A stretch of DNA of 32,902 bases, from assembly GCA_028823475.1 (NCBI GenBank), contig JAPKBI010000003.1, positions 1 to 32,902 of the forward strand, given 5' to 3'. The stretch's first letter is position 1. Every line of letters starts with the position of its first letter. Position numbers and translations under genes: made by a program. Below the pieces are notes generated by a model that saw nothing but the letters and a program-made list of their open reading frames with translations, had not been told where the DNA came from and did no database searches. This document shows positions 10,521 to 16,119 of the stretch, piece after piece. Origin of the DNA: Halioglobus sp. Lineage in GTDB: Bacteria; Pseudomonadota; Gammaproteobacteria; Pseudomonadales; Halieaceae.

Positions 10521-11957
10521 TTAACCCTGATCGGGCACTTCAACTTCTTCGTCTTGCACAGGCTCTTCCTGCATTAATTCTGCCTGCAGCGCTGCCTTTT
10601 CTTCTTGCATCGCTACGTCTTCATCTTGCAGGGATTTTTCCCGTGCCAGTTCAGAGTCCATATAGGTGATCCACTGGTCGGCATAGGCAACTGAGCGCTC
10701 ATCGCGGCCTGCCGCGATGAAGGCTTCGCGCGCTTTTTCATATTGTTGGTTATTGAAATACGCCATACCCAGCACTAGCCGCGCCGTATCCGGCCGTTTC
10801 ACCCCGCCGCGAGACAAACCCTTATTAATGGCGGTTATCGCCTTTTTGAATTGATCATTATCCAGGTAGACATTGCCGAGGCGAACATAAAGCTCCCCCT
10901 TATTCGACTTAGCTGCGGCCTTCTCCATGGCAGGAATGGCCTTGCCGAGCTCTTGCGATTGACGCCAAGCATTGCCGGTTATCTCCCAATTTTTCGATTT
11001 ACCTTCAATCGAGCCATCGCGTAGCCCTTTGTCCATCACTCTGGCCGCTTTGTAAGGCACATCGGCGTTCAAGTAAAGGTAGGCCATTGTTACCTGCTCA
11101 TTGCCCTTATCCAGCATGTTTTGCACATACGCCGTTTCCATCGCGGCCAGCTGCTGAGACTCCTTATTCTGCTCGCCATACAGATGGGAAATCTGTACCC
11201 AGTACTCCTTCTTGGGGTAGTACTTCAGTAACTCTTCTAGCACGGCAACGGTATTGTTAGTGTCGTTCTTTTCGAAATACAGATAGCGGGCCAGGTTGTA
11301 CCACTGCTCTCTGGGTATCTTACCCGCCTCCTCACTCATGCTAATCGCTTTCTGCACATTGATAAGAGAGTTGTCATAGTCCTTGACCTGATAGTAACCC
11401 TGAGCCAACAGCACATAGGCATTCGCGTTGGGGGTATCGGTCATTTCAAACCATTTGATTAAGGCATTGATGCCTTTTTGCCACTGCTCCTGCACAAAAT
11501 ACAGCTGGGCAATAGTAAATCGGGTGTTGATTTCCATGGCCAGCGGGATGTCCGGCTGCGCCACCACTTGCTCATAGGATCTCAGCGCTCCGGCATAGTC
11601 TTCCCGAGAATACTGAATAAACGCGTACAGGTTGTAGACGTTGGCCAGCTCATAGCTGTTCAGAGACTTCTTGCCGTCAGTGGCGATCATCTCATCAAGA
11701 ATTCGCTTGGCCATAGGAAGGTCTTTGGCCTCCGCTGCAACTTGCGCTTCTGAAAGCTTCTCGTAAACACTGTTGCGCAGAGCCGGGGTTCGACGCGTCG
11801 CCTCTTGCGACTTCTCTTTCTTGTCCGCCGCGAACGCACTAGAAAGCGGCGATAGGCCGACATCAGTTTGCAGCTGCGTCACGGCGACTTGAGCGGCGAA
11901 TAGAGGGACCGCAAAAAGCGCAGCGCGTGTCCAGGTAGTGGCTTTAAACAACGTCAT
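10521..11957 (-). CDS. Exported TPR protein of the TonB2-like operon
   Basis: A 478-residue protein, last gene of the operon. The N-terminus (MTLFKATTWTRAALFAVPLFAAQVAV) is hydrophobic with a likely signal peptide; a cleavage site near SSAFA|AD (residue 43) is possible, so a periplasmic location is inferred. Most of the remainder is helical repeats of TPR/Sel1 character, for example YELANVYNLYAFIQYSREDYAGALRSYEQVV, AYVLLAQGYYQVKDYDNSLINVQKAI and LVLGMAYFNNQQYEKAREAFIAAG. The last 40 residues are very acidic and Gln/Glu-rich. TPR proteins recur in TonB2-type clusters of marine gammaproteobacteria and probably scaffold protein contacts there. It follows tonB by 17 bp and ends at the shared terminator. 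Confidence 0.85.
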   Translation of the reverse strand: MTLFKATTWTRAALFAVPLFAAQVAVTQLQTDVGLSPLSSAFAADKKEKSQEATRRTPALRNSVYEKLSEAQVAAEAKDLPMAKRILDEMIATDGKKSLNSYELANVYNLYAFIQYSREDYAGALRSYEQVVAQPDIPLAMEINTRFTIAQLYFVQEQWQKGINALIKWFEMTDTPNANAYVLLAQGYYQVKDYDNSLINVQKAISMSEEAGKIPREQWYNLARYLYFEKNDTNNTVAVLEELLKYYPKKEYWVQISHLYGEQNKESQQLAAMETAYVQNMLDKGNEQVTMAYLYLNADVPYKAARVMDKGLRDGSIEGKSKNWEITGNAWRQSQELGKAIPAMEKAAAKSNKGELYVRLGNVYLDNDQFKKAITAINKGLSRGGVKRPDTARLVLGMAYFNNQQYEKAREAFIAAGRDERSVAYADQWITYMDSELAREKSLQDEDVAMQEEKAALQAELMQEEPVQDEEVEVPDQG

Positions 11958-11974
11958 AACGCATTAACCGTTTA

Positions 11975-12577
11975 CTATTCCAACTCATAAGTGAACTTGT
12001 TTCGCACGCCTGCAACTTCGATAGGCTCGCCATCGACCACACGAGGCTTATACTTGAACTTCAACGAGGCCTTAACAGAAGCCTTGTCAAAGACGCCACT
12101 GGGCTGACAGTCTACTGCCCGTGGATCGCGAATAGCGCCAGAGGTGGTGACCGTGTACTCAACAATACAATAACCACTGATACCGCGAGTCTGTGCCCTT
12201 CTAGGATAAATGGGCGCCACTTTCACAATGGGCAAATATTCGCCATCACCCTGAGCCATGGTGCCGGTACCGATGGAGATGTTGATATTGGCCCGCGGTG
12301 CGACATTCTCGATGTCGACGTCCATGTTAACGTCGAGTTGCTCCATCTCCATGTCCGGCGGCGGCTCTTCCGGATCTTCCGCCTTGTCCGGTTTCGGCGT
12401 GGAATTCTGCAACTCAATGTCGTCGGGAAGCCGCACTAGCTCGGCAACCATGCGGTCATCCACCTCAGGGTTGACGAAATTACCATCGATAAGCGTGCGC
12501 ATGATCAAGAACAGCGCCACAACCATGACGATCGCCAGCAGTATCGAAATAGCCGTTCTAAATAGACTACTCTCCAT
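11975..12577 (-). CDS. tonB: TonB family energy transducer (TonB2-like)
   Basis: A 200-residue TonB. One N-terminal membrane anchor (AISILLAIVMVVALFLIMRTLI, about residues 9-30) leads to a short linker that is acidic and proline-containing (EDPEEPPPDMEMEQLDVNMDVDIE), unlike the long Pro-Lys region of E. coli TonB. The C-terminal domain (from about 120) has YPRRAQTRGISGYCIVEYTVTTSGAI ... KFKYKPRVVDGEPIEVAGVRNKFTYELE, the fold that touches the TonB box of outer-membrane receptors. It contains two cysteines that may pair. TonB proteins carry proton-motive energy from ExbB/ExbD to receptors. The short linker is typical of TonB2-type proteins, which depend on accessory TtpC-like proteins. Five bp separate it from the second exbD. 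Confidence 0.92.
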   Translation of the reverse strand: MESSLFRTAISILLAIVMVVALFLIMRTLIDGNFVNPEVDDRMVAELVRLPDDIELQNSTPKPDKAEDPEEPPPDMEMEQLDVNMDVDIENVAPRANINISIGTGTMAQGDGEYLPIVKVAPIYPRRAQTRGISGYCIVEYTVTTSGAIRDPRAVDCQPSGVFDKASVKASLKFKYKPRVVDGEPIEVAGVRNKFTYELE

Positions 12578-12582
12578 CTCGC

Positions 12583-13008
12583 CTACCCCTTCTCGTCAGT
12601 GGAGATGCACACGGTCGGGTCTAGCAAGTCCTTGATCTTATCCAACAACTCGCTGGTCGCAAGCGTACTCGCCTCCGCATCCACCTGTATCACAAAATTC
12701 GCCTTAGGGGCTTCTATCTTGGCAGCCTCTGCGGCACTCGCGACGCGAGCCAGCGGTATCTCCTTCTTGTCGTAGTGAATCTTACCTAAAGCGTCTACCG
12801 CAAATATAATGGTGCCTCGCAGACAACGATCAGCAGTAGCCGCCTCGATTCTCACGATTTCGGGGCCAGGTTCCTTCACAAAAGTCGACGTCACGATAAA
12901 AAAGATCAGCATGATAAACACGACGTCGAGCATCGGCGTCAAGTCAATGTCACCGTCACCGCCTCCATCCTGCGGTGCTAAAGGGCCCCTGGTTCTGCGC
13001 CGGCTCAC
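12583..13008 (-). CDS. exbD: ExbD-type biopolymer transport protein (second copy)
   Basis: A 141-residue ExbD/TolR protein. A cytoplasmic basic tail (SRRRTRGPLAPQDGGGDGD) precedes IDLTPMLDVVFIMLIFFIVTSTF, the single membrane helix with the proton-carrying aspartate (LTPMLDV). A periplasmic domain follows, with a TLATSELLDKIKDLLD helix. The ORF track starts at TTG 13029, but GTG 13008 overlaps the upstream exbD stop as GTGA, with GGAGAG 6 nt before it, so 13008 is taken as the start. Two different ExbD proteins in one operon suggest a hetero-oligomer or division of labour with the two ExbB proteins. Confidence 0.9.
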   Translation of the reverse strand: MSRRRTRGPLAPQDGGGDGDIDLTPMLDVVFIMLIFFIVTSTFVKEPGPEIVRIEAATADRCLRGTIIFAVDALGKIHYDKKEIPLARVASAAEAAKIEAPKANFVIQVDAEASTLATSELLDKIKDLLDPTVCISTDEKG

Positions 13009-13415
13009 TGCGTGCTCTCCGCCGGCCAATTTACCTGCTTTACGCCCGCCTCGCGGGCGCCATCTGCAACAGAGATAAGCGTTTTAGAAGACGCGCCAGC
13101 CTCCGTTATAATCGAAAAGCCCTGCTCCGGATCCGAGGCCAACCGCTGTGCTACGCTCGACCTAACAGCCTTAATATCGACAATCCGATCATCCATCCAG
13201 ATCTGGTCATTGCCCCTTATGGTAACAACGATACTGGTAGCATCAGACTCAGGGGGATCAATATTGGTATCGGGCCGGTTTATATCAACACCAATCTCCC
13301 GCAGGAAAGACGCCACTACGATAAAAAAGATCAGCATAATAAACACCACGTCCAGCATGGGTGTCAGGTCGATCTCGGCCTCATCGGCATCTGCGTTTCG
13401 GTTTGTTTTGCGCAT
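13005..13415 (-). CDS. exbD: ExbD-type biopolymer transport protein (first copy)
   Basis: A 136-residue ExbD/TolR protein starting MRKTNRNADADEAEIDLTPMLDVVFIMLIFFIVVASFL. The membrane segment is almost identical to that of the downstream copy, including the essential Asp, whereas the periplasmic domains differ clearly (this one is rich in Asp and hydroxyl residues: RPDTNIDPPESDATSIVVTI). In ExbB-ExbD motors the Asp is protonated and deprotonated to drive TonB. It lies 13 bp after the short exbB and overlaps the next exbD by 4 bp. Confidence 0.92.
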   Translation of the reverse strand: MRKTNRNADADEAEIDLTPMLDVVFIMLIFFIVVASFLREIGVDINRPDTNIDPPESDATSIVVTIRGNDQIWMDDRIVDIKAVRSSVAQRLASDPEQGFSIITEAGASSKTLISVADGAREAGVKQVNWPAESTQ

Positions 13416-13948: not shown

Positions 13949-15334
13949 TCAAGACCTCAGTTTAGCTTCAGTGTGCTCCGCAATCATACCCGTGGTCTGC
14001 TCGTCCAGGATGTGAATGATCCGCTGGGCGCGACCGTTCACAATGGTGAACATCAGTACGGTCGGAATCGCCACCAACAGGCCCAGCACGGTGGTGATCA
14101 AGGCGCTAGAAATACCCCCGGCCATAGCCTTGGGATCACCCGCACCAAAGATAGTAATGGCCTGGAAGGTCAGAATCATACCCGTCACCGTGCCCAGCAG
14201 CCCCATTAGCGGCGCAATGGCTGCGATAATCTTCAGAAGGGTAAGACCACTCTCCAGCTCCGGCGTTTCCTTTAGCACACCCTCGGACAGCTTCAGCTCC
14301 AGGGTCTCAGTGTCCATATTGGGATTGTCCTCGTGTATCTTTAGCACGCGACCCAAAGGATTATTGGTGTTCGCCTTGTCTGACCTAAGCTGAGCACTCA
14401 CCCTCCCGCCCACGGTGGTCAGTACGGAGAAGCGGTAGATGGCCAACAGAAAGGCAAAAATACCCAACGCGGTGATGGCATAGCCGACGTAACCGCCCTG
14501 ATGCCAGCGCTCTGCCAGTGTCGGCGTACCAATGATGGCCGCCAGATAAGAGCCGCCAGTAGGGCCGGTAGGATCCACGCCGAAGGGGTTCAGTCCGCCC
14601 GAAGCAGAGGCCAAGTCGGCCGCCCAACCGGTGTAGGGACCACTAGGTTGGCGCGCTAGCTCACTGAGCTTCCCGTTCTGAAAGCTGAGATAGTTGCCGT
14701 CCATATCGACGATATTGAAAGAGCCGACGCGCAGCACCTGGCGCTCAGTACTCGCCCCCCCGGGCGAGGACACATCCGCTGAGAACGTGGTTACCGCGCC
14801 GGTCTCGCGGATTTCGCGCAACAGCTCGTACCACACCCGCTCGATCTCCTCAATACTGGGCAGGCCAGTAGAATTGTTCATCCTCTCTACAAGCTCTTGC
14901 AGAAAGATTTCTCGGCCGGGATACTGAGCCGAGGCCAGCGAATAATTCTCGAAGTTGGTTATCAGATCTCCGGCAGCCGACGTGAGATGTCCAAACAGCT
15001 CCTTCAGAGTGCCGAGCTTCTCAGTCAATAATTCTTCCTTGGCAGCGATCAGAAGCTCGTTTTCTTCGAAGGCGTTTTCCAGTTCAGTAGAGAGCGCTTC
15101 TTGGCGAGCACGCTCGTCCTGCGCCCGTTTCAATTCTGCAGCTTGGCCGGCCTTGTCATTCGCAAAGCGCTGTTCCCGCTGTCGGTTTTCCCTGGCCTCC
15201 GTGGTCTGGCCCTGCTTGACAAAGCCCAACAACTCATCCAGAGATTTAGCCTGCTGCGCCAGGGCGGATCCACCTGAAACTGCCAGTGCGCCGCACAGTG
15301 CGAGGGCAGCACCTTTTACCCATTTAATGCTCAT
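13949..15334 (-). CDS. ttpC: TtpC-like long ExbB-family protein with periplasmic coiled-coil domain
   Basis: A 461-residue protein in two parts. Residues 1-26 are a signal peptide (GALAVSGGSALA|QQ). Residues about 28-280 are periplasmic: a long charged coiled coil (about 40-110), then a helical/beta domain. The ExbB channel part follows: membrane helices near 281-300, 365-388 and 405-432, with APLMGLLGTVTGMI as signature and GRAQRIIHILDEQTT at the cytoplasmic end. This architecture matches TtpC of Vibrio TonB2 systems, required for TonB2 but not TonB1 function. Residues about 181-223 (VTTFSADV...RQVLRVGSFNIVDMDGNYLSF) resemble residues 177-217 of the upstream DUF3450 protein (see findings). 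It overlaps that gene by one base (TGATG). Confidence 0.9.
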   Translation of the reverse strand: MSIKWVKGAALALCGALAVSGGSALAQQAKSLDELLGFVKQGQTTEARENRQREQRFANDKAGQAAELKRAQDERARQEALSTELENAFEENELLIAAKEELLTEKLGTLKELFGHLTSAAGDLITNFENYSLASAQYPGREIFLQELVERMNNSTGLPSIEEIERVWYELLREIRETGAVTTFSADVSSPGGASTERQVLRVGSFNIVDMDGNYLSFQNGKLSELARQPSGPYTGWAADLASASGGLNPFGVDPTGPTGGSYLAAIIGTPTLAERWHQGGYVGYAITALGIFAFLLAIYRFSVLTTVGGRVSAQLRSDKANTNNPLGRVLKIHEDNPNMDTETLELKLSEGVLKETPELESGLTLLKIIAAIAPLMGLLGTVTGMILTFQAITIFGAGDPKAMAGGISSALITTVLGLLVAIPTVLMFTIVNGRAQRIIHILDEQTTGMIAEHTEAKLRS

Positions 15335-16119
15335 CAGTTAGCCTCCGGTGCTGCTATGGGCATTTTCAACAAATCAGTTGTTGCCTGCTTGTTTACAATT
15401 GCAATGCCCTTTTTAATAGCGGCGTCGTAGTCGCTCGAAGGCAGTGTCACCCAGCTCCTGGAAGTATTATCCCAGGCGCCGTTCAATGCGCCATCCGATG
15501 ACCGATAGGCAAGTGCGATGCGGCCCACTTGCAGAAAATCTACTTCTCGCTCGCTGCCGTTGGTGTCAATCGGCCCCTTATAAGTACTGATTGTGCGACC
15601 GTACTGAAGCTCGATATTGTACGCTTCGAGTACCGCACGAAATATTTCTGCCGTGTCCAGGTTATCGCGATCAAGACTGCTGCGCAGCATCTGCACACGC
15701 GCTAAACGTTCTTTTTCTTCAAACGGTACATCCAATTTTATGAAAGCCTCGAGACCGTCTAGCATCCGGGGGACTAGCGGGGGTATCTGCCGGGCAATGA
15801 CCGTCGACTTATCGATATCTGCCTCAATCCCGGCAATGCGTGCGACTTGGTTATCAATTTGGCGCTGCAGGCGAGCGTTGTAAACCTTCAAGCCATCGAC
15901 CTGCTTAGTCACCGTCTTGTAGTCAGACAATAAATCACGGGTTTCATCGGCCAGCCGGTCAATTTTCACCTGCGAATTGCGCGCGGCATTGTTTTTGGAT
16001 TTACCCACCGCCAGGATCGAGTCCAATGTGGTGGCTTGCACCGCTGCCACAGAACCACCAAGGGTGCCTGCAGTAATCAGCGTGGCGATCAAGACTTCTT
16101 TCAATCGATGCTTAGTCAT
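15334..16119 (-). CDS. DUF3450 family exported coiled-coil protein
   Basis: A 261-residue protein, first gene of the TonB2-like operon. Residues 1-29 are a signal peptide (LITAGTLGGSVAAVQA|TT), giving a soluble periplasmic protein. Residues about 50-105 form a coiled coil (VKIDRLADETRDLLSDYKTVTKQVDGL...LQRQIDNQVARIAGIEADI). A helical part (PPLVPRMLDGLEAFIKLDVPFEEKERLARVQMLRSSLD) follows, then a beta-rich C-terminal domain (ISTYKGPI...VDFLQVGRIALAYRSSDGALNGAW). This is the DUF3450 pattern, known from genome neighbourhoods to accompany ExbB/ExbD/TonB genes but without an established function. ATG 16119 begins it; the stop overlaps the ttpC-like start. Confidence 0.88.
   Translation of the reverse strand: MTKHRLKEVLIATLITAGTLGGSVAAVQATTLDSILAVGKSKNNAARNSQVKIDRLADETRDLLSDYKTVTKQVDGLKVYNARLQRQIDNQVARIAGIEADIDKSTVIARQIPPLVPRMLDGLEAFIKLDVPFEEKERLARVQMLRSSLDRDNLDTAEIFRAVLEAYNIELQYGRTISTYKGPIDTNGSEREVDFLQVGRIALAYRSSDGALNGAWDNTSRSWVTLPSSDYDAAIKKGIAIVNKQATTDLLKMPIAAPEAN

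Follow-up and report, generated by a model that had tools for sequence, protein, structure and literature searches.

We identified a domain shared by two proteins of a TonB2-type operon, TtpB and TtpC, and the covariation and charge patterns between them suggest that the two very probably zip together as a parallel, in-register, two-stranded coiled coil. TtpB, a DUF3450 protein, and the entire periplasmic part of TtpC share one ancestral domain, which in TtpC is fused to an ExbB/TolQ-type channel and in TtpB is a free copy. Both proteins are essential for TonB2 iron uptake in Vibrio, and the roles of both have been unexplained. Our results would unite both in a single assembly whose contact residues are predicted, give DUF3450 a testable function and suggest that some TonB motors contain a built-in periplasmic scaffold.

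The window, by which we mean the whole analysed stretch of 32,902 nucleotides, comes from a Halieaceae genome, and its nearest named relatives are Halieaceae. Its minus strand carries seven consecutive genes of the TonB2 operon type, from the DUF3450 gene (15334-16119) to position 10521, in the order ttpB-ttpC-exbB-exbD-exbD-tonB-ttpD:

15334-16119, minus strand: DUF3450 protein (TtpB), 261 aa, exported, without a channel domain; open reading frame; Pfam PF11932, E 4.4e-73
13949-15334, minus strand: TtpC-like protein, 461 aa; open reading frame; Pfam MotA_ExbB, E 4e-30; laid out as signal peptide, DUF3450-like periplasmic domain and ExbB/TolQ-type channel, with a model that fits TolQ/ExbB
14555-15253, minus strand: DUF3450-like domain in the periplasmic part of TtpC, approximate residues 28-260; aligned in register with DUF3450 by hhalign, E 6.2e-12
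14003-14359, minus strand: MotA_ExbB channel domain of TtpC, residues 326-444; Pfam PF01618
13429-13947, minus strand: ExbB, 172 aa; Pfam MotA_ExbB, E 1e-20
13005-13415, minus strand: ExbD, 136 aa; Pfam ExbD, E 2e-20
12583-13029, minus strand: second ExbD, 148 aa; Pfam ExbD, E 1e-15
11975-12577, minus strand: TonB, 200 aa; Pfam TonB_C, E 2e-14
10521-11957, minus strand: TPR protein in the TtpD position, 478 aa; Pfam TPR families; gene order as in PMC6957404

The DUF3450 protein scores 246 bits against PF11932 (curated cut-off 32.6) over profile positions 14-240 of 241, and the PF01618 cut-off of 22.9 is exceeded by both TtpC (104.6 bits) and ExbB (74.1 bits); the signal peptides of the DUF3450 protein and TtpC were assigned by eye only. 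The first-pass annotation had placed the first two genes at these coordinates and described a one-base overlap, and the junction, AACTGATGAGC, confirms that overlap (TGATG). The window shows the TonB2-type order ttpB-ttpC-exbB-exbD-tonB-ttpD with one extra exbD, and this order is also seen in a record of Vibrio campbellii and in an annotated one of Pseudoalteromonas. The tandem exbD copies (12583-13415) are two different genes overlapping by 25 bases; the exbD motif occurs twice in 8 of 81 scanned loci, mainly from Halieaceae, and most other loci have it once or, with the strict pattern used, not at all.

Compared by element order and residue numbers, the AlphaFold models of DUF3450 (mean pLDDT 80) and TtpC (83) from the window follow one plan: a helix of some 100 residues (30-129 in DUF3450, 32-130 in TtpC), two shorter helices (135-149 and 156-175 against 141-153 and 161-178), five strands (177-226 against 181-225) and then a further helix. 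The coils and beta segments lie at these positions:

15733-16032, minus strand: long coiled-coil helix of DUF3450, residues 30-129; AlphaFold
15442-15591, minus strand: five-stranded beta segment of DUF3450, residues 177-226; AlphaFold strands and profile match
14945-15241, minus strand: long coiled-coil helix of TtpC, residues 32-130; AlphaFold
14660-14794, minus strand: beta segment of TtpC, residues 181-225; AlphaFold strands and profile match

Hydropathy along the long helix has a period of 3.50 residues in DUF3450, a signal equalled in 0 of 500 permutations, and of 3.53 in TtpC (8 of 500). A fold search of the PDB with the DUF3450 model returned no solved relative, its best match being a spliceosome chain (E 0.0097), and PDB sequence searches gave no matches for the periplasmic domain. 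In the TtpC model, it is the channel that fits known structures, those of TolQ and ExbB.

To ask whether the two proteins touch, we applied mean-field direct coupling analysis (DCA) to concatenated DUF3450-TtpC pairs (351 pairs, Neff 263), labelling residues D for DUF3450 and T for TtpC in the numbering of the window. The seven strongest inter-protein couplings, D85-T81, D49-T54, D99-T99, D95-T99, D74-T71, D78-T74 and D192-T189, all lie near the register diagonal, and an offset of at most 6 from it is seen for 13 of the 20 strongest couplings and for 22 of the first 60, when 5.7% would be expected (about 1 of 20). Swapping partners among relatives left 1-4 of the top 20 near the diagonal and random pairing 0-2. 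The top couplings already ran along it with the first 221 pairs, and the 132 added, held-out pairs alone, few as these sequences are, placed 2 of 20 there; intra-protein couplings from the same run, our positive control, were consistent with the AlphaFold strands. An antiparallel arrangement was also considered and was weaker than the parallel one when the strongest couplings per register were averaged over all pairs. As expected of a heteromeric coil, in-register covariation stood above both swapped and shifted controls. Together with the charge patterns described below, it points to these predicted interface residues:

15823-15888, minus strand: DUF3450 residues D78 (K), D85 (Q) and D99 (E); covariation and charge
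15038-15115, minus strand: TtpC residues T74 (E), T81 (L) and T99 (K); covariation and charge

In the window itself, K at D78 is matched by E at T74, and E at D99 by K at T99.

Charge at these positions follows the same pattern. At D85-T81, which ranked near the top in the first 221 pairs, charges are opposite in 133 of 135 charged cases (+/- in 19, -/+ in 114, like in 2), with swaps in both directions; among pairs added after that discovery set of 221, they are opposite in 44 of 45. On the tree, nine independent lineage contrasts agree (p 0.004) and almost none go against. D78-T74 behaves similarly, with opposite charge in 131 of 148 cases (55 of 65 held out) and about ten agreeing contrasts (p about 0.001), again with almost none opposed. 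Hydropathy puts D78 and D85 at heptad position e and T74 and T81 at g, which, given the homologous register (T = D + 1), would make these pairs the g-e' salt bridges of a parallel in-register coil. Over the whole set of D-e/T-g pairs, opposite charge is raised to 1.37 times expectation and like charge lowered to 0.55 times, a signal that arises mainly from a few heptads (residues 66-99); on the D-g/T-e face, like charge falls to 0.77 of expectation, chiefly through D66-T72 and D73-T79. Homotypic pairs (D-D and T-T), in contrast, are flat (opposite charge at 0.98 and 1.06 of expectation), and one-heptad shifts give charge ratios near 1.0. The charge bias and its flat controls thus indicate a two-stranded TtpB:TtpC coil.

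Natural variants agree with this pairing in two cases, one fusion and one joint coil loss. The fusion lies on a single metagenome contig (L267, minus strand, 1815 to about 350), where the C terminus of DUF3450 runs in frame into a TtpC that has no coil and has lost its own signal peptide. The contig is cut inside DUF3450, and with the TtpC signal gone the fused protein must rely on the DUF3450 signal beyond the contig end. No second fusion turned up among 38 genomes of the same family. Long frames at three further DUF3450 matches (L143, L150 and L166) proved to be N-terminal read-through and not TtpC fusions. In the clade L252-L260, DUF3450 and TtpC both lack most of the long coil; the motor there would have to operate without long arms.

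Covariation reveals contact and not its duration, and TtpB might therefore be an assembly chaperone or plug that pairs with TtpC transiently, leaving a working motor that contains TtpC alone. The position of ttpB as first gene of the operon would suit this, as would the absence from TtpB of any membrane anchor besides its signal peptide, but we consider it unlikely: an in-frame fusion such as that of L267 would preclude release of TtpB in that genome.

The genes themselves form an obligate pair. A TtpC-type reading frame directly follows 231 of 244 DUF3450 reading frames; the remaining 13 comprise eight truncated where their contigs end, two whose partners the motif filter missed, one with a split reading frame and two true orphans. 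The soluble paralogue that the first-pass annotation had described next to ttpC in the window is thus the rule, with two exceptions once cut contigs and missed or split partners are counted. Independent searches of 276 gammaproteobacterial genomes found DUF3450 in 64, all of which also have TtpC; TtpC without DUF3450 occurred in a single genome, whose TtpC starts at the edge of a contig. The two orphan DUF3450 genes (L216 and L218, minus strand, with starts near 2618 and 2766 of the reverse complement) adjoin genes for ABC transporter ATPases and have no TtpC behind them. Three genomes (G048, G362 and G105) are among those with five or six DUF3450 matches, some of these being TtpC partners themselves, and likely carry several TonB2-type operons each.

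Two paralogues kept side by side could nonetheless act apart, with TtpC coils pairing with one another on the channel and TtpB working elsewhere, for instance with the TPR protein or at the outer membrane. The orphan genes just described would fit such a division, as would coil length, which varies independently in most genomes (rho -0.03 between TtpB and TtpC across the family); in two genomes the TtpB coil is shortened near its N terminus while TtpC is normal. Cross-species complementation also separates the two proteins: in V. vulnificus a foreign TtpC2 works and a foreign TtpB2 fails (PMC6957404), a result that a simple cognate TtpB:TtpC pair does not predict. A review states that TtpC of V. 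cholerae does not function in V. anguillarum (PMC5524678), which leaves the complementation record mixed. Set against these points are the in-register inter-protein covariation with its charge swaps, the flat homotypic charge signal, the natural fusion and the near-perfect co-occurrence of the two genes, and we regard separate action as improbable.

The common descent of the two domains is nearly invisible to pairwise comparison. BLASTP between the two window proteins gives E 0.004, confined to the end of the signal peptide, and the Pfam DUF3450 model matches the window TtpC below its cut-off (E 0.022, 14.5 bits) and only in the coil region. HMMER with narrow family models likewise gave few cross matches between DUF3450 and TtpC. 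Between the two families, by contrast, the similarity lies well above chance. With broad alignments built from 231 widely diverse pairs, hhalign aligns the full domain at E 6.2e-12 over 193 columns in the same register, and cropping leaves 4.4e-5 for the coil alone, 5.5e-8 for the post-coil part and 1.8e-5 for the beta segment. None of 20 column shuffles per crop fell below 0.022, and reversed controls gave 0.0068 for the full domain and at least 0.1 for the post-coil and beta crops. With narrower alignments the match was less strong (E 7.8e-9, 3.8e-5 and 0.0077), the last value coming from 100 closely related pairs, for which one shuffle of the post-coil crop reached 0.002.

Searches with single profiles lead to the same conclusion. 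In a scan of 24,736 Pfam families, DUF3450 is, besides the channel, the only one with many TtpC matches (14 of 27 and 15 of 59 proteins). Matches to TtpC of relatives are colinear over profile positions 4-191, and two exceed the DUF3450 cut-off (39.7 bits, in one genome, and 33.4 bits); the reverse search, from a TtpC profile to DUF3450 proteins, gave E 1.3e-10 and 1.2e-9. Because unrelated coils match Pfam DUF3450 by chance down to about 1e-4 to 1e-5 in the coil region only, the colinear match through the non-coil part is what counts. Judged by these profiles, the periplasmic part of the window TtpC belongs to a sister family homologous to DUF3450, and by score is not a Pfam member. The idea that coils merely look alike and that the beta-segment motif is a coincidence, to which the blank BLASTP result past the signal peptide and the chance coil matches might lend colour, is highly improbable in view of the post-coil and beta-segment matches (5.5e-8 and 1.8e-5, with shuffled or reversed controls at 0.022 or higher), the identical order of elements and the reciprocal profile matches that run through the non-coil part.

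The first-pass annotation had started from a short alignment of beta-rich segments, from residue 177 of DUF3450 and 181 of TtpC, and its starts were correct, as unsupervised hhalign pairs the same segments. Its reading of TtpC as a DUF3450-like domain joined to an ExbB channel holds more widely than it had claimed, with homology covering coil, helices and beta segment and not the beta segment alone. The coil, helices and beta-rich segment that it had assigned to both proteins are present in both models, with a coil periodicity of 3.5 residues. The follow-up that it had proposed, by profile comparison of the TtpC periplasmic part with DUF3450 (hhalign, as above), structure prediction of each protein (matching elements whose residue numbers almost coincide) and inspection of the pair in other genomes (TtpC in 64 of 64 with DUF3450), bears it out.

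The pairing is also present in a second, diverged operon class (L175-L183), in which the motif of TtpC, GTLIRVGNIAAYG, is similar to that of DUF3450, FLRVGRIALLYQ. These operons contain DUF3450, a TtpC-like protein, ExbB, one ExbD, a TonB-like protein, a TPR protein and, where visible, a further exported protein. A joint tree of both domains, made from an alignment merged from two separately built halves and in which long branches meet, splits cleanly into all free and all fused copies, which suggests that the domain was duplicated before the two operon classes diverged.

We propose that one ancestral domain was duplicated, probably before that split, and that the free copy (TtpB) and the fused copy (TtpC) then stayed together. 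TtpB and TtpC would zip through the parallel, in-register coil, and the helices and beta segment that follow would probably pack side by side. Given the order of elements along the TtpC chain, the beta segment would sit at the membrane and the coil would point away into the periplasm, reaching about 15 nm, judging by helix length, if it is straight. Were TtpC to assemble into a pentamer as ExbB does, ExbD and TonB2 could be ringed by as many as five TtpB:TtpC arms. Across the periplasm, such arms would most likely keep TonB2 in place or guide it, and might do so for the TPR protein TtpD as well, a guiding role that we put forward only tentatively. The first-pass annotation had suggested a paired or mixed coiled-coil assembly around the ExbB/ExbD/TonB motor; the pairing of TtpB with TtpC is supported by covariation and e-g' charge swaps, and its arrangement around the motor is one that we infer, as the evidence here covers the TtpB-TtpC contact only. 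More broadly, and with somewhat less than even confidence, we suggest that TonB2-type motors may bear a periplasmic superstructure, absent from classical TonB and Tol motors, of several arms of this length on an ExbB-type channel, holding TonB2 and reaching towards the outer membrane.

The closest known system is TonB2 of Vibrio, whose operon runs ttpB-ttpC-exbB2-exbD2-tonB2-ttpD and in which siderophore uptake needs all six proteins; TtpB2, a DUF3450 protein of 255 aa, is essential (PMC6957404). The gene order of that system (TtpB2-TtpC2-ExbB2-ExbD2-TonB2-TtpD2) is like that of the window, its TtpB2 is likewise a DUF3450 protein, and it differs from the window, which has two exbD genes in a row. 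The accessible part of the Vibrio literature notes a leucine zipper in TtpB2 only and treats TtpB2 and TtpC2 neither as paralogues nor as partners. A 2025 study of generic ion transporter A subunits, as far as its accessible text goes, describes DUF3450 as appended to the N terminus of non-flagellar MotA/ExbB-type subunits, the arrangement seen in TtpC, and in that text names the domain only, mentioning neither a soluble DUF3450 neighbour nor pairing (PMC12505986). The claim of the first-pass annotation that it knew of no published description accordingly stands in part: the architecture is partly on record (PMC12505986, PMC6957404), and for paralogy or pairing of TtpB and TtpC we found no description in a search that covered little of the subscription literature, where an earlier one may exist. 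Within the sources covered, then, this type of operon, the requirement for both TtpB and TtpC, and DUF3450 as an appendage are known, and the paralogy and pairing are unreported.

Among other motors, the TolQ/TolR/TolA and ExbB/ExbD/TonB systems of E. coli are related through the channel, where the TtpC model fits TolQ and ExbB structures. To our knowledge, E. coli ExbB and TolQ lack a signal peptide, have no long periplasmic domain preceding their first membrane helix and work without a partner such as TtpB. ZorA, of the Zorya defence system, is a MotA-like subunit with a long helical tail; that tail is cytoplasmic, whereas that of TtpC is periplasmic and is predicted to pair with a second protein.
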